IMG/VR virus record: IMGVR_UViG_3300035698_016083
Location: 1-64,000 of that record
DNA: 64,000 bases
Direction: 5' to 3' (one strand)
DNA from: a virus
The position numbers and the translations under genes were made by a program. The notes under the pieces were generated by a model. That model did no database searches. It worked only from the letters and a program-made list of their open reading frames with translations, and was not told where the DNA came from. Shown piece by piece: positions 19,974 through 62,078 of the stretch (position 1 is the first letter of the stretch; every line of letters begins with the position of its first letter).

Positions 19974-21131
19974 TTATTTTAGTGCTAAGAAGTCAACTTT
20001 TGAGAAGTTTTCTGCTATTAGTAGATCTAGTTTGTCATTAATAACATGCGACGTCACGGTTTCATTCACAAGATTGAGAGAACCATATAGTCCGGTCAAC
20101 AGATCAGAATCTGTATCGGCATTAATTACCTTCCCGACTCCCCTTATGACTATCGTTCCGTTTGTCACGGTGTCCATATCAATTTTTACCTGACCAGCAT
20201 TCAGGTCGATGCTGATAGATTCTACGCCAGTTTTGTTTATTAGTTTTACCCCGCCGTCATAATTTCTCATGGCGAGGCTCTGGCCAGAACCACCACAATC
20301 AATTACCGGTGTACCAGTTCCGGGTACACCACTTTCACATTCTAAGAATTGTGCTAGTTCATTCCCACCTAGTGTGATGGTTCCGGGGTTCAGTATGCAA
20401 TCCTCGACGATACCTGAAACATACTGTAGTTCTTCAATTATACAATGTTTTAAGAAGCTTTCGCCATCCAAAATCCCGGTTATGCTCGCTGATATGAAGC
20501 TGGAGTTATAAACATTAGCGGCACTTAAAATATTAAAATTCGAAAGGGATTGACCCTGTCCCTCAAAAATAAGATCGTTCAGGGGTGTGGTTGTTTTAAA
20601 TACTATATCACCGTGAATATTAAATTTATTGAATCCTCTTACTTGAGCAATTGTAAGAGCGTCATCGAGATTATTCACTTTTTGTGTTTGGGTACCAATT
20701 GGATAAATTGCTCCACTATAAATGGAATCAGAATCTACGTGTACTCCCCCACCAAATGTTGAGAATTCTAAGAACGTGGGATTAATAAATCCTGTTGTGT
20801 TGTTGGTACCAACAGAGACCTGATTTTTCTTTTCAACAACCCTGAAATTAGTGTTACCACCTATGATATCAACTGCATACGCACCGTCTTCAAATTGAGC
20901 AGCATAATACAGTTCATTTACGTCAGTAATACTCGGGGTCGAAGATGTAGCAGGAATACGAGAATAAATGATAGGGAATGGCGCACTTTCGGCTCCGTCT
21001 GCATACTCGCGTAGTAACTCCCAGAATTTGTCTACAGCTATTGTGTATCTAACTCCGATGTCAAGGGTGAGATCGGATTTAGGTATTGTTATTAACCACG
21101 GGGTTTGAGAGTAATCAACGGTAATTGCCAT
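19974..21131 (-). CDS. virion/fibre protein with beta-helix-like repeats
   Basis: A 385-residue protein beginning MAITVDYSQTPWLITIPKSD. The first 150 residues look like a compact attachment domain (RYTIAVDKFWELLREYADG). From about 160 on, short repeats of strands with N/S/G turns (GDIVF, FEGQG, FLKHCIIEE, CILNPG) suggest a right-handed beta-helix. It is the last gene of a fibre cluster inserted between the portal and the prohead core genes. I think it is a fibre or head/tail decoration; no enzymatic motif is seen. Confidence 0.55.
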   Translation of the reverse strand: MAITVDYSQTPWLITIPKSDLTLDIGVRYTIAVDKFWELLREYADGAESAPFPIIYSRIPATSSTPSITDVNELYYAAQFEDGAYAVDIIGGNTNFRVVEKKNQVSVGTNNTTGFINPTFLEFSTFGGGVHVDSDSIYSGAIYPIGTQTQKVNNLDDALTIAQVRGFNKFNIHGDIVFKTTTPLNDLIFEGQGQSLSNFNILSAANVYNSSFISASITGILDGESFLKHCIIEELQYVSGIVEDCILNPGTITLGGNELAQFLECESGVPGTGTPVIDCGGSGQSLAMRNYDGGVKLINKTGVESISIDLNAGQVKIDMDTVTNGTIVIRGVGKVINADTDSDLLTGLYGSLNLVNETVTSHVINDKLDLLIAENFSKVDFLALK

Positions 21132-21132
21132 T

Positions 21133-21348
21133 TTAAGCGGTACTTCCTAACACCTGTCCATATTGTAATTGATTAATTCTTTTTGTTAAAGTCACTATAT
21201 CATTTGCTTGCATTGCAACGGTTCTTTGCAGAGCCTTAATATCATTTTGTCTGTCATCGTCGTCTTTTCTCTGACGTTCGAATCCTGCAATAATACCCTG
21301 CATGTTTCTGCGCATTAATTCAAATTCTTCTGGGGTTGGTTCGCTCAT
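21133..21348 (-). CDS. small coiled-coil protein in fibre cluster
   Basis: A 71-residue charged helical protein: MSEPTPEEFELMRRNM, a basic/acidic linker KDDDDRQND and a heptad helix to residue 62. It lies between two large virion proteins. It could be a chaperone or connector for them, but there is nothing to prove either. Function unknown. Confidence 0.5.
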   Translation of the reverse strand: MSEPTPEEFELMRRNMQGIIAGFERQRKDDDDRQNDIKALQRTVAMQANDIVTLTKRINQLQYGQVLGSTA

Positions 21349-21367
21349 TTATTTATCGCTTTCATAT

Positions 21368-23212
21368 TTATTCATCGGAAACCATCACTGCAGTACCGCT
21401 TAATCCCGTTGTTGTTGAAACGTCACCGTTAACTGTACCCTGTTTAAAATAAGGTGCCGACGTGCTTTTTCTACCATATCCGGTAAGAGGTTGTAGCGTT
21501 GTGTATACTCTAGATGTACTTATAATTCCATTTGCAGCGGTTAATCCATAGAGTGCAACAAATGTTGCTATTATAGTTCCCGTTGCAGATGCTGCCGCCC
21601 CGACGTCAATTACATATGAATAACTATTTGCATCAATAAACGTGATTTGAGCTACTAAATTATACTCAACCTCGTTCGCGCCGCGTATGAGAATATAGTC
21701 ATTTGTTGCCATTCCGTGCGCGTTGTGCACGACTGTAGCAGTTGTACCGGATTTTGAAATCGTTACAGAATCTGCAAAAGGGAACGCTCCTGTTCCGTCG
21801 GATGCTTTCAATAATACTCTGGCGTTTTCAATCGGATCACCATCCCCATCAACGGCTGTAACCTGAACTGTGACCGCCCCGGAGATGATGTTAACATCTG
21901 CGCCATCAGTCTTATAACTTACGGTTCCAGATCCACCGTCAATTGTTATGTTAACGGTTCCTGTAGTTCGTTTAATATGAAGAACACTCGAAGTCTCGCC
22001 GTTTCCTGCATGATAACCGCTGAAATCTATACCAGTGAGAGTCATTGTAAGGGGCGAAGTTAATCCGAACTCTATCGCATGAGTTAACGCAGAACCCATG
22101 GTGAATGACATATCATCCATTTCGCCATTTGGATCCGCGGCAACATCATAAACGAGAGCACTTGTATCCGCAGTACCTTCATAGCCAGAAACTGCTGTAC
22201 CGTTCATTATTCCCCCACCGTGTGCGATTTGTCCACAGCGAATAAATTGGCTGTCTGTGACGTCACTGTTGGCGAGATATGTATGAGTTCCCATATCGTT
22301 GAAGGTACAACCAATGAAATTTACATCAGCGTTGTCTATGACCTCAAGGGAACCAGCGCTTACGGTACCGAGAGATGAAATAGTCACACCCGTCCAGTCA
22401 ACACGTGACGACGCGTTATTTATTTCTATCGAATTAAATCCTGGTGTAACGTGTTTCGTGTTGTCGATACTTATCGAGGAGTTGGTATCTCGGAAATCGA
22501 CAGCAGTCGCATTCCCGAGGGACATAAGACCCTTCCACAAATAGTTACCTGCAGATTGTTCTTGAAATAGTCCCCAACGATTATATCCATTTGTACCATC
22601 GTTGTAATCATTTTCTTGTGCCATGTCGGCAAAGTTACCATACGCCGCGGCTTGTCCATCGATCGCTATTATTTCACAGCGACCATATCTTACAGCATCA
22701 ACTTTGAATGGTGCACCTTTTGATGGAACCGAGCCTGGAGCACCATAACCCCATCCGTGATATTGTTTAGTCGTGGAAGGTGAACCGACTGTATCGCTGG
22801 CAGTAATACTCGCGTCGGCTGGATCGCCTGTAGCGAGATTTCGCCAACCACCATAAACATACGAATCATTTCCGAGTTGGTAGAAAATGTCAAAGGCATT
22901 CGACGCGCTGCCCATGAATGTAACCATTCCGCCCGCGGCTTCAGTATCTAGCAATGGTGCAGCGTCCCATTTAGCCCAAATCAAAACGGCATCGTCTTGA
23001 CCTAGCGTAATTCCGGAACCGTTGTTATAAAGAAGACCACCAAGACCGGATTTTACAATACCTGAGTTACATGAGGAATTTTGAATGAAATCGTCAGTAT
23101 CATTACTTGGCGAGCGCAAAGCTGTCCACGTTGACGACGGTTCAGCCCAACCGGTGAAGCTGTCAGCCTCGTCCATCGTAGTTAAATCGGTGGAATATGT
23201 TGCGATTGCCAT
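21368..23212 (-). CDS. large virion protein, probable fibre/adhesin
   Basis: A 614-residue, Gly/Ser/Thr/Asp-rich protein. Residues 1-200 resemble a lectin-like beta-sandwich; 240-450 have strand-turn repeats (SLEVIDNADVNFIGCTF, HIKRTTGTVNITIDGGSG) suggesting a beta-helix; 450-530 contain an Ig/invasin-like VQVTAVDGDGDPIENARVLLK segment. Such modular make-up is usual for receptor-binding or decoration proteins. The ATG overlaps the stop of the YkgJ-like gene. Function inferred from composition and location. Confidence 0.6.
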   Translation of the reverse strand: MAIATYSTDLTTMDEADSFTGWAEPSSTWTALRSPSNDTDDFIQNSSCNSGIVKSGLGGLLYNNGSGITLGQDDAVLIWAKWDAAPLLDTEAAGGMVTFMGSASNAFDIFYQLGNDSYVYGGWRNLATGDPADASITASDTVGSPSTTKQYHGWGYGAPGSVPSKGAPFKVDAVRYGRCEIIAIDGQAAAYGNFADMAQENDYNDGTNGYNRWGLFQEQSAGNYLWKGLMSLGNATAVDFRDTNSSISIDNTKHVTPGFNSIEINNASSRVDWTGVTISSLGTVSAGSLEVIDNADVNFIGCTFNDMGTHTYLANSDVTDSQFIRCGQIAHGGGIMNGTAVSGYEGTADTSALVYDVAADPNGEMDDMSFTMGSALTHAIEFGLTSPLTMTLTGIDFSGYHAGNGETSSVLHIKRTTGTVNITIDGGSGTVSYKTDGADVNIISGAVTVQVTAVDGDGDPIENARVLLKASDGTGAFPFADSVTISKSGTTATVVHNAHGMATNDYILIRGANEVEYNLVAQITFIDANSYSYVIDVGAAASATGTIIATFVALYGLTAANGIISTSRVYTTLQPLTGYGRKSTSAPYFKQGTVNGDVSTTTGLSGTAVMVSDE

Positions 23213-23631
23213 TAGATATCAAATCCCATAGTTATTAGTGAGCTTTTCAAAGCTTTTCTGACATTAATAACCGATGCATCGGGTGCTAACAAAGCAAATC
23301 CCTTTTGTGAAATAACCGAGATACCATGATCTAAATATTCTTTGAATATTATTTCGGGTTTTTCAGTTATTAATGTGTCATCGATAATCGTTACAAATAC
23401 CACACTTTCGTCCGGTAATCTTTCGACCATGAAACCCACTTTGTCGGGTCTCATTTCTTCAGAGAAATCACCAAGTGACCATGCACACTGAAAATCTGCG
23501 CATACTTTCGGTCTTTTGTTGTAGATGCTGCACCCACCTTTACAGTGGATGCAGGTTTTCATTAATGGTTTATCCAATTCCGGAACTTCAGTAATAGTGC
23601 AACATAATGTACAAGTTCCGCATGGACGCAT
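23212..23631 (-). CDS. YkgJ-type cysteine-cluster protein
   Basis: A 139-residue protein with the metal-binding pattern of the YkgJ family (Zn/Fe-chelating CxxCxxCC): CGTCTLCC (C4, C7, C10, C11), CIHCKGGC (C27, C30, C34), YNKRPKVC (C44) and FQC (C49). I start it at the ATG at 23631, two bases after the upstream stop, since the metal domain begins there; the frame is open further back inside the neighbour. It probably binds an Fe-S cluster or zinc. Its presence between two fibre genes is unexpected; it may modify or load metal into a virion protein. Confidence 0.75.
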   Translation of the reverse strand: MRPCGTCTLCCTITEVPELDKPLMKTCIHCKGGCSIYNKRPKVCADFQCAWSLGDFSEEMRPDKVGFMVERLPDESVVFVTIIDDTLITEKPEIIFKEYLDHGISVISQKGFALLAPDASVINVRKALKSSLITMGFDI

Positions 23632-23632
23632 A

Positions 23633-25363
23633 TTAGGTATCGACGGTACGAATAACTGAAGTTGATCCGCCGTTTGTACCCATTGTACCGGTCGCGATGT
23701 ATTCCTTAATAGGAGAACCAGCGCCGTCACGAGCTTTGATAACGAACTTACGATCGGCATCATAAACGAATGTGAATTCTTCAGGATCAACTGTGGTTAA
23801 TTTATCCACGTAGGATACAAACGCTCTATTACCACCTGTAGCATTTACTGATGCAAAATCTTCTTGACCATCAGTTGTATCAACAGTAAAGATTGCGCCT
23901 GTGAAAGATGTATAGTGTAGCTTTCTCCAGAATCCATCGTTATCTTCTAGACGAATGAATCCAACTTCGGGAGTATCCGATGGGATAGAAGCAGACATTT
24001 CAAAGGCAGTTAAGTTATCAGCGTTGAGAAGAGCGTTTGTTGTCATCTGGTTGTAATCAATTTCAGGATTACCAGAAGCGTCTGTTGCTGCGCCATCCCA
24101 TGGGCCGATTAAGATATAATCTTCACCGACTTCAGGGTTGTTAACCGTAAACGTCACGTTGTTTGGAGGGGTAATACCAGTGTTGGTAAGATCGAATACA
24201 AGGTCTGTCGCTGCAAGATCTGCGGTTTCTAGGGATTGACCGTAAGAACCAATTAGAGCAGAACCGGTTGATGTACCAATAAACGGTGTGTTAAGAAGAG
24301 GCGAACGATCGGTAACTGTTACATTTACCGCAACTGTCGCTGCAGAAATACCGCCGGTAATTACACCGCCGTCACCTGGTAGACCACCTGTTAGAAGTTG
24401 TAGCCAAATAAGCGTACCTGCTGTAGGACTGTTAATCGCGAGCATTTGACCTGTACCAACCGCACCACCAGAACCAGCTGTCCAAGCAACATCTTCTGCA
24501 GGAGCAAATGTTCCTGTAGGTGAGTCGACAGTAATCTGTGTTGTGATACCTCTGAATAGTTCAGGATCGATTCCGTAGATGAAGTCTGTAGCACCCTCAC
24601 GCGTTAGATATTTTGTGAATTCGACAAACTGATTAATAGTCTTTGCACCGCGATCCCACTCGGAGTAATAATCCTCTACAGTTGTATCGTTGTTAACATC
24701 GATTTGTCTGAAACCATATGCAAGATCGTAAACTGTTTCACCACCAGCGGTAGCTACTATCAGATTTTGATTCAGTGTTAATGCGTTAGTTGAGATCGAG
24801 ATAATTTGATATTCAGCAACGTCTGTTGCAACACCTGTCTGAATGAAATCGCCTTCAGCAAACTGCGTACCATCGGCAACATTTAATACTGCCTGACCGG
24901 TTGAGTTAACACCGGATACTGTTGTTGTGGAATCGGTTCTTGCCATGTATACGTCAGCCCAACCAGCCACCGTAGCAGGTGCTGTTGTGTTGTTCAAGTC
25001 GTTAGCATCAGCCAAAGCGAGAACGTTGTTACCACGAGCTGTTGCGTTAATTGGGAATTCGCCATATGTTTTATTGAACGTACGATTTGTTCCAAGCAAC
25101 TTACGAGTATCAATATCTACACCACCAGTCTTAACTTTAAGTAAGAAACGGTGCGAGATACCCTGAACTGAGTCTGAGTTTAGACCCTGTGAGATAAGAT
25201 AATTATCGCCTGATGTCCACGTGTTTGCAGTACCACCAAACAATACACCGGTAATAACCGTGCCTGTATTTTCAGTAATAAGTGCTTGAGAACCATCAGT
25301 TGTGTTTTTAATTACATAACCAACCCATTCATCAGTTGTCCAAGCTTCGCCTGAATCTGTCAT
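23633..25363 (-). CDS. large virion protein, C-terminal part of a frameshifted gene
   Basis: A 576-residue fragment beginning MTDSGEAWTTDEWVG and ending TVDT, rich in Gly, Thr and Asp, with a core QFVEFTKYLTREGATDFIYG. The same frame is open upstream through 25600 and would join the 77-residue protein at 25588-25821 but for an 11-bp tandem duplication at 25618-25643. Without the duplication one gene of 25821-23633 would encode about 725 residues. The fragment may be translated from its own ATG, but no good Shine-Dalgarno is apparent. Probable virion/fibre protein. Confidence 0.65.
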   Translation of the reverse strand: MTDSGEAWTTDEWVGYVIKNTTDGSQALITENTGTVITGVLFGGTANTWTSGDNYLISQGLNSDSVQGISHRFLLKVKTGGVDIDTRKLLGTNRTFNKTYGEFPINATARGNNVLALADANDLNNTTAPATVAGWADVYMARTDSTTTVSGVNSTGQAVLNVADGTQFAEGDFIQTGVATDVAEYQIISISTNALTLNQNLIVATAGGETVYDLAYGFRQIDVNNDTTVEDYYSEWDRGAKTINQFVEFTKYLTREGATDFIYGIDPELFRGITTQITVDSPTGTFAPAEDVAWTAGSGGAVGTGQMLAINSPTAGTLIWLQLLTGGLPGDGGVITGGISAATVAVNVTVTDRSPLLNTPFIGTSTGSALIGSYGQSLETADLAATDLVFDLTNTGITPPNNVTFTVNNPEVGEDYILIGPWDGAATDASGNPEIDYNQMTTNALLNADNLTAFEMSASIPSDTPEVGFIRLEDNDGFWRKLHYTSFTGAIFTVDTTDGQEDFASVNATGGNRAFVSYVDKLTTVDPEEFTFVYDADRKFVIKARDGAGSPIKEYIATGTMGTNGGSTSVIRTVDT

Positions 25364-25587
25364 TGTTGCTGCACCAGATGATGTATCATCCGCGCCACCA
25401 ACACCAAAGTTCCAGAAGTCGTCTGCAAGTACACCACCGTTTTGGTGAATCTGAATAACAACGCCGATGTTACCAAAGTTTGTTAGTCCGTCAAAAATTA
25501 CTTCTGAACCACCTGTTCCCTGAACAATTGATCCATCATAAAGGTGTTCTGCTGCTGCATCTGTTATTGTGTAACCACCTAATAGGG

Positions 25588-25821
25588 TTACGAAGTTGTC
25601 GGTCGCACGAGATGATGGTAAGATGTCTGTAAGATGTCTGTAATATCTAGTTCATCATTATCCCCGGGAATAGCATTTGGATCATCTGCTAGACCTTGGA
25701 GCCATCTGTGAAATTGAATTACTGTTGCGTATGACGCTGCGGTCACACCATGATCTGCGCCGGTATAGTCAATCACTAATGTTCCGCGATCAATTGTCCA
25801 GTCTGTTGCTACTATTGCCAT
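25588..25821 (-). CDS. virion protein, N-terminal part of a frameshifted gene
   Basis: A 77-residue product with the start MAIVATDWTIDRGTLVIDYT and QFHRWLQGLADDPNAIPGDN, then shifted out of frame after ELDITDILQTS. The correct continuation (LPSSRATDNFVTLLGGYTI) lies in another frame. A tandem 11-bp duplication, seen at 25618-25643, explains the shift. A perfect late promoter stands 55 bp upstream, so the operon is expressed even if the full protein is not. Confidence 0.65.
   Translation of the reverse strand: MAIVATDWTIDRGTLVIDYTGADHGVTAASYATVIQFHRWLQGLADDPNAIPGDNDELDITDILQTSYHHLVRPTTS
25618..25643. repeat. 11-bp tandem duplication causing a frameshift
   Basis: GTAAGATGTCT at 25618-25628 is repeated exactly at 25629-25639 and followed by GTAA. 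Removing one copy fuses the two reading frames on the minus strand into one long virion gene. Confidence 0.9.
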
Positions 25822-25875
25822 TCTATTGATAGCTCCTTGTTTTTGTTTTTATTTTTATAACAATATTCTTATCAT

Positions 25876-25883
25876 TATTTATA
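25876..25883 (-). promoter_or_regulatory. late promoter of the fibre cluster
   Basis: A perfect TATAAATA on the minus strand, 55 bp before the ATG at 25821, between the collagen-like gene and the frameshifted virion gene. Confidence 0.8.
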
Positions 25884-25884
25884 C

Positions 25885-26952
25885 TTATGAGTACGTGAAA
25901 CTTAACCTATTATCCCATATTTTTATGAAATTATCAGTACCATCAGCCCATAATATAGTTAGATCTTTAGTTGTAGGATCCTCATATACTCTTTTTATTC
26001 TCCATAATGCAGACGATGTTGCAGTTCCTGGAACCGCCTCACCAATGTATGTGTTATCACCAGCGATATCAATTTGTTTAGAGTATTGCATTTCCATTTG
26101 TACCTGTAGTGATAATAAAACCTCAGTCAAATCTGTGACCACGAATTTTTTAGTTGTGCTGTTGAATATTAAAATGGAATCATGACCTACATCAGAAATC
26201 ATCTTCATTTCAACATCAGCATTATCTAATATTTTATATGAACCACCGCCACCTAATGATGCAAGTGATCTATTAACTGCCGCGCGAAAATCACTGTTTT
26301 GTTTTTCGACTGCTTCTATATGGGGAGCCATATCTGGCTCTTTAGCATCTTGTCCTGCTGGACCTATTTCACCTTTGGATCCGCGCTTCCCTTGGATTCC
26401 CACATCTCCTCTGAGACCTCTGGGACCGGATGGACCCATTCCACCTTGCTCACCTCGGACACCGGTTTTGCCAGACTTTCCATCTGCGCCATCACCGCCT
26501 TGACTTCCGGTAATACCCACCAATCCGCGTTCTCCGCGGGATCCGGTCTTACCATTTTCACCTTGCGAACCGTTGGGTCCAGTATCTCCGCTTTTTCCCC
26601 GAGATCCTGTTTTACCTGTGGCACCATTAGGGCCCATTGGTCCAACCAATCCTTGACTGCCTTTTGAACCATCTTTTCCATTGACTCCATCCAGTCCTGT
26701 TGGACCTTGAGAACCATCTTTTCCATCTGGTCCGGGAATTCCTGCATCGCCTTTTGGTCCATTCCGACCATTTTTTCCCACATCGCCACTATTGCCAATT
26801 TTTCCCTCAAGCCCGATAGGACCTCGTCGTCCGATTTCGCCTTTATCACCTTTATCACCCTTTTTTCCTCGTGGTCCTGGAATAGCTCTAATTGATTTTT
26901 TCGCTTTTTCCATAACCGCTAACATCAAAGCAATTTGTGTTTGCTGTTTCAT
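25885..26952 (-). CDS. collagen-like virion protein
   Basis: A 355-residue protein. A short helical N-terminus (MLAVMEKAKKS) leads into 59 uninterrupted Gly-X-Y triplets (residues 26-202), which should form a collagen triple helix. A coiled-coil-like spacer and a beta-rich C-terminal domain follow, containing SSALWRIKRVYED and IKIWDNRLSF, probably for trimerisation or receptor contact. Lysine is common in the repeats; six triplets have it in the Y position. It starts two bases after gp20. Phage collagen-like proteins usually form fibres or head whiskers. The helix is certain from the pattern; its location in the virion is inferred. Confidence 0.85.
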   Translation of the reverse strand: MKQQTQIALMLAVMEKAKKSIRAIPGPRGKKGDKGDKGEIGRRGPIGLEGKIGNSGDVGKNGRNGPKGDAGIPGPDGKDGSQGPTGLDGVNGKDGSKGSQGLVGPMGPNGATGKTGSRGKSGDTGPNGSQGENGKTGSRGERGLVGITGSQGGDGADGKSGKTGVRGEQGGMGPSGPRGLRGDVGIQGKRGSKGEIGPAGQDAKEPDMAPHIEAVEKQNSDFRAAVNRSLASLGGGGSYKILDNADVEMKMISDVGHDSILIFNSTTKKFVVTDLTEVLLSLQVQMEMQYSKQIDIAGDNTYIGEAVPGTATSSALWRIKRVYEDPTTKDLTILWADGTDNFIKIWDNRLSFTYS

Positions 26953-31027: not shown

Positions 31028-32650
31028 TTAAAAATCTGGTCCTAATGGTACTTCTGCGATTGCCCACGGATCATCAAACACATCAGGAACTTCTTTTCTC
31101 TCAAGTTCTTTGATGTAATCCTCACCATTATCAATATATCCAAACGCGGGCATTTCATTTTCTATTTCTAACATTCTATCCTCAAATAGCATTTTACTGA
31201 GATCAATATCAGTAAGATCATTAAAGAAATTTGTACCGGCAAAATACCCAAGAAGAACAAAATTCATAACTAAATCGTCATGATTACCCTCTGATGCTTC
31301 GTATGATGAACCTTTTGCTACAAAGGTTGAAACTTCTAATATAGTATTCTCGTCGACAATATTTAGTTTATTTTCTTCAAGTAAATCCTTGAATGACGAA
31401 CATCCAATTCTCTTAACTTTTTTGCTCATGTTGAGACCTAGAGCAGATGCTTTAATTGCGGATTCGACGAACATATTTTCATATTCAAGATCGTAATATA
31501 AACCGTTACACACAACTTGCCCAGCGTCATTTGCCTCAATTACAACTAGACACTCGTTATACATATTCGCATATTTGTATATTAGATTTGGGAACAATAG
31601 TGGTGAGATCATATTAGATCTGTATGTGAACACCTGTTGCCACGGTGAGACGGTGAGATCAATAATGTTGAATGTTGAATAATCGAGACCCCTACCCTTC
31701 GCTACGTCAACCATCATTACATAATTATGTTTCTTATCGGGTTCTGCGTAAACCCTCATTATGTCATCTATAGTATGTAAGGGATCTTGTGCTCTTAATC
31801 CCATCAGGGTCATAGCATTAATTAATGTATCACCAGTACCAAAGAACGTATTACCAAATTCCTGCTCAAACTGTCTAACGGAGGTGTTAGCAATAGTCTC
31901 CTGTTTCCATTCTTCGTCGCGGCCGGGAACGTCCCACCAGTCAACACGGAAAGGTACATATGAGCTCGTACCCTGAATAGCCGATTCCCACAATTTCTGA
32001 AAGATGTTACCAATACCATTTGCTGTAGATGTAATGATAACCTTAGTAGATTTACCGGCAGAAATAACAGGATATGTTGATGTGTAGAATGTTGTTGCAT
32101 CCTCAACGAATGCAAACTCATCTAAGTAAATTAAGTTAGCGGCGAAACCACGAACGGAAGATGATGAAGTACCTGCTGATAAAATACGAGAGTTGTTTGA
32201 AAATTCTATTGAACCTTTATTAAGAGATTTACACCCGGGTTGTAAGAAGAATGGGAGATTTTCTAACATCAGTGTAATTCTTGAAATCATCTCCCGCGCG
32301 ATCAAACCTTTGTTGGCTAGAACCGCAACAGTCTTACTCTCATTAAAAATAGCATACCATAAAAGATATGCAACAGATGAGATAGATTTTCCACTCTGTC
32401 TACATGCAAGAACGATGTTAAATCGATTCTCATTAAAGTTTTTAAACATCTTTTCTTGGTAGGGATATAACTCAAATGGTACCAATCCCTCGTCAAGATT
32501 GATAATCATACAATATGTTTTTGCAAAGTACGCAGGATCAGCCATACATTTACCGTATTCTGTAACCTGTTCCATCGTCCATTTTTGTTCAACACCATCG
32601 CGCTTTACTTTTATGTTACCGTTATATGAATCCTGATAATTATAATCCAT
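31028..32650 (-). CDS. 17: terminase large subunit (T4 gp17-like)
   Basis: A 540-residue packaging motor. Walker A is CRQSGKS (83-89), Walker B is IYLDE (174-178), and motif III STANG follows near 208. The nuclease domain has D315 (MMVDVAKG), E372 (VIEAND) and D459 (NHDDLV), matching the T4 gp17 acidic triad. T4 gp17 has 610 residues; the N-terminus is shorter here. The ATG touches the stop of gp16. It cuts concatemers and pumps DNA through gp20. Confidence 0.97.
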   Translation of the reverse strand: MDYNYQDSYNGNIKVKRDGVEQKWTMEQVTEYGKCMADPAYFAKTYCMIINLDEGLVPFELYPYQEKMFKNFNENRFNIVLACRQSGKSISSVAYLLWYAIFNESKTVAVLANKGLIAREMISRITLMLENLPFFLQPGCKSLNKGSIEFSNNSRILSAGTSSSSVRGFAANLIYLDEFAFVEDATTFYTSTYPVISAGKSTKVIITSTANGIGNIFQKLWESAIQGTSSYVPFRVDWWDVPGRDEEWKQETIANTSVRQFEQEFGNTFFGTGDTLINAMTLMGLRAQDPLHTIDDIMRVYAEPDKKHNYVMMVDVAKGRGLDYSTFNIIDLTVSPWQQVFTYRSNMISPLLFPNLIYKYANMYNECLVVIEANDAGQVVCNGLYYDLEYENMFVESAIKASALGLNMSKKVKRIGCSSFKDLLEENKLNIVDENTILEVSTFVAKGSSYEASEGNHDDLVMNFVLLGYFAGTNFFNDLTDIDLSKMLFEDRMLEIENEMPAFGYIDNGEDYIKELERKEVPDVFDDPWAIAEVPLGPDF

Positions 32651-59227: not shown

Positions 59228-59249
59228 TATATTCTTTTCTTTTTCCTTT

Positions 59250-59257
59250 TATTTATA
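59250..59257 (-). promoter_or_regulatory. late promoter of gp25-gp6
   Basis: A perfect TATAAATA on the minus strand, 23 bp before the gp25 ATG. Confidence 0.8.
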
Positions 59258-59325
59258 GACGAAACGGGTGGCTTAATGATCACTGAAATGTGTTATTTTT
59301 AGTGTGACTCGAAGAAAAGGTGATT

Positions 59326-59404
59326 CGAGATTTCATTAGATATTATTGTGAAGTTGTGAAGTTCTATATAGTGTGAATTGTGAAGTTGTGAACATGAAAT
59401 CTCG
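59326..59404. repeat. long inverted repeat enclosing direct repeats
   Basis: CGAGATTTCAT (59326-59336) and its exact complement ATGAAATCTCG (59394-59404) enclose two identical 16-bp copies of ATTGTGAAGTTGTGAA (59345-59360 and 59377-59392), 32 bp apart. It lies in a 352-bp stretch (59228-59579) with no gene that I can support. Confidence 0.85.
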
Positions 59405-59405
59405 G

Positions 59406-59566
59406 TGATCATTTATGATCAATTATGAGGTGTTATGTGTGTTTGTATATCATAAATGATCGATTGTAATAGGCCGAACGTTGCCTCTTATAAGCCGTTT
59501 GGATGTATAATGGGTCATATGTGACCTGTTACGTGAGAACTGATTATTTCTTATGAGAACCGATTA
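59406..59566. repeat. cluster of small palindromes and direct repeats
   Basis: TGATCAT-TT-ATGATCA (59406-59421), ATCAT-AA-ATGAT (59449-59460), GGTCA-4 bp-TGACC (59513-59526) and a direct repeat TGAGAAC(T/C)GATTA at 59534-59546 and 59554-59566 (20-bp period). With the adjacent inverted repeat this fills the only large non-coding gap of the window. Confidence 0.75.
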
Positions 59567-59579
59567 CTATGTGCAAGTA

Positions 59580-62078
59580 TTATGCTACTGAGAAACCTTT
59601 ATTCCAAGTGTGTACTATTTGTATATCAGGACGTCTCCATTCGCTTTCATCATAGTGTATGAAGGTTGGATAGCCACCGATTCCTACTACTACATTCCGT
59701 TCGATTGCATTTGCTTTTAGAATAGACACATACTGATTATATAATGATGGATGTGTGTTCGGGAATAGACGCTCACCGCCAAGAACTAAATAGTGATCTG
59801 CTGCGTGACCTGGTGGATGGTTTTGTGTTCCACTCGATCTTGGTGCACGTCCACCGTTTGGTGTTATTTGTACTGAATAGCCAGAACCTAATTGTGCTGC
59901 CGCAATTGATATCGCATCAATTATATTTTGATCAGGCATACCACTCGTTTCACCTTTTATAACTGGTGCTCCTGTTCCTTGTCCTGGTTCGGCAAGTAGA
60001 TCTATTAGATCATTCGCCGTGGTTTGACCATTGAATTGTGTGGTTGCATTTCTAGAGAAACTACCAGTAAATTCTTCGCTCAACGTTGGCATTGTTAATA
60101 TGATTCTCGCCACCATATTACCTGTTGGATCGTATGTATTATAATCTAGAATGATTGACTCATAATGATTGAACGATCTCCAGTATTGTGCAAGTTTAAA
60201 TGTTTTGTATGGATCTATTGAGCCTGTTCGGTCTCTTAGAGAATAAACAATTGTTCTTCCTTCAAGTGATGATTCGGCAAGTGAGCCAGAACCGATAGTC
60301 TCATTTGGATCTTTGCGATAGACACCTTCTTCAACTGTTAGTCTCCAACCCTCAAATCTCTCACCAAGATTATGGAATTGTGCTTGCAGATATAGATGAC
60401 GAGCAATATTATTCTTTTCTTCACGTGTGAATGTGTCGAGTGAAGCCGGATCATTACCTGCAAAGAATTGGCCGACTGTTACGCCAGGTCCGAGTGGTAA
60501 TGATAATGTAATATTATTACCGGTTGGATCGTACTGATCAGGTATGAATTCTTTTCTAGTTGCTGGTTCACTATCATATAATGCTGCAACGCTGGAACCA
60601 CCGATTGGTGTGATACCTCTTACTCCTGCCGGTGCGCCAACATTAGATACTGATGTTGGGTTAACATTTACATATCCTGGATTCAATTTGCCTTCAGTGA
60701 TTTGTGTATTGATAAACTCAGAAGAACCGGTTGCGTCTGTGTTCTTCATCTTCGAAGCAACTTGTTTTGGTGTTAGTGTTCTGTCTGTTATATCACCGTT
60801 GTCAAAACCACGATCGATCATATTCTTAAGATTATCACCAACATCTACTTTAACTTTCTTGGTACCTTTACTACTCTTATTGAGATATGATTCCATATTA
60901 GCTGCAGTAGGTTTTGCAGATTCTGTTGTATCCACTGGTTCTACAGCTAAACCACCTGTATCATTATTAACAATAGACCAACCAGGATCGCTACCAAGTC
61001 CTGCTGTATAAGAACCAGGTGAAACACCTACACCAGATGACGTGACATACACACCATCATTATATGATTGGTGCAGTGATGTACCAGCAGTAATCGCCTC
61101 CTTCGCCAATCCATCAAGATCACCATTGAATGTTGGTGCATCAATATTATCTGTTGCAAGTACAACTTTAGCTCTGACTGCATCGGATGCCGTGATTGTT
61201 TCTGAATATACTGTCTTGGATGCTTCCATTGTCTCAGCATATAATGTCTTTTCGAATCGTCCGTTGAAACCATAGAACTGAACGTTCTGTCCACCGATCG
61301 TACCTTCATCACCAGCGAGAGTCATGTTAGCTGCTGCTATATTCATATTGGGTGATGTGATTACCATCTCACCTTCAGAAGTTGTTGATAGTATTCCTGA
61401 ACTCGCAATGATCATATCACCTTCAGATACCATTCTTGATTTACCTTTAGTAATCAACGAATGTCCAGCAAGATTAGTACTTACATTAGCACCAACTGTT
61501 GTTGAGTTGCGTGAGCCCTTTATGATTGATGTTAAAGAACCATCAACGAATTCTCTCGATGCCATTCCAACCTTTTCAAGTTTAGAACCTTTTACATTAA
61601 GACTATAATTACCATCAACTGATACGTTGTGATCGCCCGTCACTTTGAGATCTAGATTACCCTTGTATATCATTGTGCCGTTGCCTTCAACGACTAGATT
61701 CTGATCACCCTTTGTGATTTCAATCTTATGATTTTTTGATACTAATACTATCGATCCATCAGGCTTAAATTCTATTCCTGCTCCAGAGGAATGCATAATC
61801 AAATAACGTTCAGCACCTGGTGTATCGTCAGTTAGAACTACGTGTCCACCTGCTGTTTCTCTGACCTGTACTCGTGGATAATGAGAACCCATCACTTCAG
61901 GTATTTCAACTTGAACACCATCAGGTGCACCACCAGTATCTAAATAATAATTATTGACACCACGTGCAGCTCGATTGATAGATGATTTGTTTTCGTATTC
62001 TTTTCTCGGGAACTCACCGGATGTACCTGCAAATCCGTCTGGATGAATACCTGTTGTTTCAATTTCTTCGGGTAACAT
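59580..62078 (-). CDS. 5: baseplate spike (T4 gp5-like) with C-terminal M15-type peptidase
   Basis: An 832-residue spike protein. An OB-fold-like start (MGSHYPRVQVRETAGGHVVLTDDTPGAERYL) leads into beta-helix repeats of the gp5/VgrG type (about 115-300: GNLDLKVTGDHNVSVDG and onward). A low-complexity linker and a domain at 500-690 follow. The last 120 residues carry HPPGHAAD (H754, D761) and FIHYDE (H808), the zinc-ligand pattern of M15 D,D-/L,D-carboxypeptidases. T4 gp5 has a lysozyme domain instead. It should puncture the outer membrane and cut the cell wall. Hub position is supported by the lysozyme-like genes after it. Confidence 0.8.
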   Translation of the reverse strand: MLPEEIETTGIHPDGFAGTSGEFPRKEYENKSSINRAARGVNNYYLDTGGAPDGVQVEIPEVMGSHYPRVQVRETAGGHVVLTDDTPGAERYLIMHSSGAGIEFKPDGSIVLVSKNHKIEITKGDQNLVVEGNGTMIYKGNLDLKVTGDHNVSVDGNYSLNVKGSKLEKVGMASREFVDGSLTSIIKGSRNSTTVGANVSTNLAGHSLITKGKSRMVSEGDMIIASSGILSTTSEGEMVITSPNMNIAAANMTLAGDEGTIGGQNVQFYGFNGRFEKTLYAETMEASKTVYSETITASDAVRAKVVLATDNIDAPTFNGDLDGLAKEAITAGTSLHQSYNDGVYVTSSGVGVSPGSYTAGLGSDPGWSIVNNDTGGLAVEPVDTTESAKPTAANMESYLNKSSKGTKKVKVDVGDNLKNMIDRGFDNGDITDRTLTPKQVASKMKNTDATGSSEFINTQITEGKLNPGYVNVNPTSVSNVGAPAGVRGITPIGGSSVAALYDSEPATRKEFIPDQYDPTGNNITLSLPLGPGVTVGQFFAGNDPASLDTFTREEKNNIARHLYLQAQFHNLGERFEGWRLTVEEGVYRKDPNETIGSGSLAESSLEGRTIVYSLRDRTGSIDPYKTFKLAQYWRSFNHYESIILDYNTYDPTGNMVARIILTMPTLSEEFTGSFSRNATTQFNGQTTANDLIDLLAEPGQGTGAPVIKGETSGMPDQNIIDAISIAAAQLGSGYSVQITPNGGRAPRSSGTQNHPPGHAADHYLVLGGERLFPNTHPSLYNQYVSILKANAIERNVVVGIGGYPTFIHYDESEWRRPDIQIVHTWNKGFSVA

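Follow-up and report, generated by a model that had tools for sequence, protein, structure and literature searches.

The window, by which we mean the whole 64-kb stretch of viral DNA that was analysed, comes from an uncultivated phage, a T4-like myovirus as indicated by PHROG profile matches, several of them near whole-length, to the major head protein, scaffold, protease, portal, tube, sheath, terminase, baseplate wedge proteins, DNA polymerase and clamp loader. A cassette is located between the portal gene (gp20) and the prohead core and protease genes (Table 1), which codes for a collagen-like fibre protein, the broken gene described here, a Cys-rich protein and proteins of 614, 71 and 385 amino acids. 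In 40 T4-like loci in which both markers are present, the distance between portal and protease ranges from 150 to 6252 bp, compared with 7.4 kb in the window, and in 21 of them it is only 150-600 bp. As the spacing is short in these 21 loci, we regard the cassette as accessory. Other T4-like relatives carry different inserts between portal and protease, and the order of the cassette recurs in part in phages whose packaging genes are quite different. The Cys-rich protein (CGTCTLCC...CIHCKGGC), which is encoded at 23212-23634 on the minus strand, is weakly similar to phrog_9155, a group of unknown function, and its homologues are found at the same place in loci L014, L028, L030, L037 and L123. 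An N-terminal domain common to the product of the broken gene and the 385-aa cassette protein had been suspected by eye; hhalign returned a probability of 15.5%, and such a domain is not claimed here.

The broken gene spans 2189 bases on the minus strand, from 25821 to 23633, and is read in two frames. The first of these is a 77-codon ORF that begins with the ATG at 25821 (MAIVATDWTIDR...) and ends with a stop at 25588. The second frame, read from 25642, comprises 669 codons with no stop, and its first in-frame ATG, GTG or TTG is found only at 25363. As the lesion hits the conserved N-terminal region at residue 62, the truncated product retains less than one tenth of the protein. The remainder of the gene showed no further stop, shift or other lesion, and the window's other structural genes also appear intact. 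The length of about 725 codons that the preliminary description gave for the gene after deletion of one repeat copy is correct, since 2189 minus 11 bases correspond to 726 codons including the stop. The late promoter mentioned there is likewise present as an exact match to TATAAATA, to which we assign a promoter function by analogy with T4.

Table 1. Features of the broken gene and its surroundings in the window
Feature	Position	Strand	Description
Accessory cassette, portal (gp20) to prohead core/protease genes	19974..26952	-	7.4-kb portal-protease stretch
T4-type late promoter TATAAATA	25876..25883	-	exact match to the motif, ~55 nt ahead of the start codon; role assigned by analogy with T4
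Ribosome-binding site AAGGAG	25833..25838	-	11 nt upstream of ATG 25821
Upstream ORF, 77 codons	25588..25821	-	~62 N-terminal codons homologous to the family, then ~15 out-of-frame codons
Frame-breaking 11-bp tandem duplication	25618..25643	.	GTAAGATGTCT x2 plus 4 bp (GTAA) of a third unit
Second frame, C-terminal part of the gene (~665 codons)	23633..25651	-	open throughout

The tandem pair of GTAAGATGTCT that had been reported at 25618-25639 is indeed present, and such a pair occurs at no other position of the window. The exact array is four bases longer than described and extends to 25643; Tandem Repeats Finder reports it with a period of 11, 2.4 copies and a match of 100%. No exact tandem duplication with a period of at least 7 in the 64-kb window is longer. 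None of 120 simulated 64-kb sequences of the same composition, 60 generated with a Markov model of order 1 and 60 with one of order 3, contained a tandem with a period of 9 to 30 and at least 15 matched positions. On the coding strand, the ends of the array carry a 4-bp direct repeat (TTAC...TTAC) with copies 11 bp apart. The array thus combines an exact tandem copy (2 x 11 bp + 4 bp, 100% identical) with microhomology at its ends and, as the 4-bp partial third unit is the microhomology expected of slippage, it fits replication slippage. Small repeats are also seen elsewhere in the window. Two adjacent tandem duplications of 8 and 7 bp, together 15 bp, are located at 31642-31680 within the terminase gene, the frame of which is intact. 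A 350-bp non-coding stretch between two baseplate genes (59228-59580) contains many short repeats (TTGTGAAG, TGATCAATTA), with TATAAATA at its edge.

A search of IMG/VR with an N-terminal alignment yielded 214 relatives, of which the best 80, all loci with the N-terminal part, were kept. In 80 of these best 80 loci the gene continues in one frame beyond the duplication point, and nearly all of their tblastn matches stop at residues 60-71 of the 77-aa ORF, mostly at 61-64, which is the site of the duplication. L002 and L003, which are relatives of the second frame in IMG/VR, each have a single ORF, the start of which matches the 77-aa ORF. We also built a family HMM from 61 full members and ran it over all frames of all loci. 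The only split members are the window, L034 and L045. In L034 (64-1721), the frame breaks about 35 codons past the site of the window and sequence is missing, and L045 is interrupted by a rearranged tail near the contig end. On the window, the HMM matches the N-terminal part with an E-value of 2.1e-25 (model positions 1-61) and the C-terminal part with one of 6.5e-202 (58-566). The window gene has the N-terminal region with the conserved HR.LQ and ADD motifs and the conserved remainder that characterise the family, but not its single uninterrupted ORF, as the duplication splits it into two frames. Being homologous in both halves, the window gene is best regarded as a broken copy and not as an intact member.

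The nearest relative, L033, is about 67% identical and has one ORF of 721 amino acids, in which the joint falls at residues 59-60 without a gap. Identity between the two is 64.5% over residues 1-62 and 67.5% over the next 664 residues. In the T4-like locus L070, the genes for the tube, the portal and the collagen-like protein are followed, in the corresponding position, by one homologue of 562 aa. When L033, L039, L042, L070 and other family members are compared with the window, both halves of the gene are homologous over their full length and the cassette order is the same; a split at this point is seen in the window copy alone. From the duplication to the first internal ATG there are 89 codons, which have a pN of 0.18 and a pS of 0.66; the corresponding values are 0.23 and 0.67 for the N-terminal part and 0.22 and 0.70 for the rest, with synonymous sites near saturation. 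As the pattern of purifying selection in these 89 codons equals that of the remainder, they were translated as part of one gene. The view that a single gene is broken by the duplication is thus borne out, and the gene was a single one until recently. A related phage with two separate, conserved genes here, which the preliminary description had named as an argument against it, was sought; the search showed the reverse, with about a hundred relatives carrying one unbroken gene. The window and L033 proteins also contain two additional stretches of about 65-75 residues without a counterpart in L002 and L003, which resemble inserted domains.

The family is made up of phage proteins of 550-740 amino acids with more than 200 matches in IMG/VR. 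Searches of PHROGs, Pfam and NCBIfam gave no entry of known function and the PDB no sequence match, and among annotated phages (50,697 records), tblastn with three queries found no relative, nor was a near or distant one found there by DNA or by protein. A structure model of L033 (mean pLDDT 83.6) is beta-rich, and Foldseek gave weak or partial matches only. With VIA-align, the C-terminal region of the model (residues ~562-663) is similar to small domains found in the baseplate, tail-tube and tailspike proteins of phages, with Z scores of 7.5-8.4 (for the best, 77 residues and rmsd 2.4) that are within the range of common arrangements, and this resemblance between a predicted domain and known ones is too weak to call the protein a fibre. 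The product is probably a large, beta-rich virion-surface protein of about 725 residues that is expressed late. Of the earlier designation as a large virion fibre gene, the inferred assignment to the virion is well supported by the context, whereas the term fibre is a conjecture. One family member, L027, is found on a 33.6-kb contig binned to a Candidatus Zambryskibacteria genome; the contig perhaps stems from a phage of an ultra-small bacterium or was binned wrongly.

Taking these observations together, we think it probable that the gene was broken by a real slippage mutation of recent date, in a cassette that is plausibly dispensable. A replicating strand would have slipped between the two 4-bp TTAC repeats that lie 11 bp apart on the coding strand. 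The stretch between them would have been copied twice, giving rise to the 11-bp tandem duplication. The resulting frame shift is predicted to yield a truncated product of 62 family residues followed by about 15 foreign ones, which is presumably non-functional. As with any short tandem duplication, slippage in the reverse direction over the duplicated stretch could undo the lesion, but there is no sign that the repeat is maintained as a switch. Because the cassette is absent from many relatives, the knock-out of this gene is plausibly tolerated, and its loss need not be lethal.

A possible but doubtful alternative is an error of assembly or contig joining, in which case the phage would possess one copy and an intact gene and the duplicate would stem from a join over too short an overlap. 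In its favour, the two-copy state is present in this record alone among more than 100 family loci, and both the remainder of the gene and the structural genes around it look intact. The interruptions in L034 and, at a contig end, in L045 show that damaged records do occur. Moreover, portal matches are at most 66% identical, and a 22-mer from the flank of the array has no second match among the IMG/VR records searched, which may lack near-identical ones. However, an exact 11-bp duplication with a 4-bp repeat at its flanks is the signature of biological slippage and is atypical of sequencing error, and no homopolymer of at least 5 nucleotides was found near the duplication. An array of 26 bp is also far below ordinary read length, and assembly k-mers longer than 26 resolve such arrays, which counts against an artefact. 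We favour the lesion being real DNA.

It had also been suggested that the duplication constitutes a phase-variable fibre switch, in which the surface protein is switched off and on as a single 11-bp unit is gained and lost, as in the slipped-strand phase variation of bacterial surface genes. A unit length that is not a multiple of 3, a product that is probably surface-exposed and the chance of back-slippage over the duplicated stretch would all suit such a switch. We nevertheless consider it quite improbable for several reasons. There are two copies only, and the junction DNA of 15 relatives contains no repeat tract at this position. Among 80 family genes totalling 143 kb, none carries a tandem duplication of at least 9 bp that breaks the frame, and within this genome we saw no further ORF that a tandem repeat interrupts. 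A search of the literature found no tail-fibre gene of a phage that is switched by a tandem repeat. One could further speculate that the 11-bp unit serves as a low-copy contingency switch, with a population that keeps both one-copy (on) and two-copy (off) genomes and thereby alternates a surface protein of the accessory cassette; this we judge to be very improbable, although a switch, if true, would matter more than a simple knock-out. It is extremely improbable that the ribosome shifts by -1 within the 60-nt overlap to produce the full protein, or that the two halves are separate genes. The overlap of the frames (25651-25591) would permit a -1 shift, which adds four residues, but the 77-codon ORF contains neither a slippery heptamer (X XXY YYZ) nor a homopolymer of at least 5 nucleotides. 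The first start of the second frame, at 25363, has no Shine-Dalgarno sequence and lies inside the homology to L033, no internal start with a ribosome-binding site before the middle of a domain was found, and the relatives have neither a frameshift nor a two-gene arrangement.

The slippage mutation that we propose would represent a clean, recent-looking natural knock-out of one phage gene. For annotation, it calls for caution, as two genes should not be annotated at 25821-23633. Beyond this, the locus draws attention to a family of large phage virion proteins that is widespread and unnamed, and to an accessory cassette between the portal and the head protease in T4-like phages. If it is real DNA, the lesion itself is of an ordinary mutational kind; an on/off switch is not demonstrated. 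A review (PMC11868660) covers slipped-strand phase variation by simple sequence repeats, and the window is similar to such systems in that the frame would hinge on the tandem copy number and that the gene codes for a probable surface protein. It differs from them in having two copies only, an 11-bp unit and no tract in relatives. Another parallel is provided by the short tandem duplications that are made by slippage, as small insertions have been found to be mostly tandem duplications in the animals studied (PMC2374710). The case of the window, in which nothing is distinctive when set beside these, shares with them the exact copy, the 4-bp microhomology at the ends, the out-of-frame length and the single event in an otherwise intact gene.
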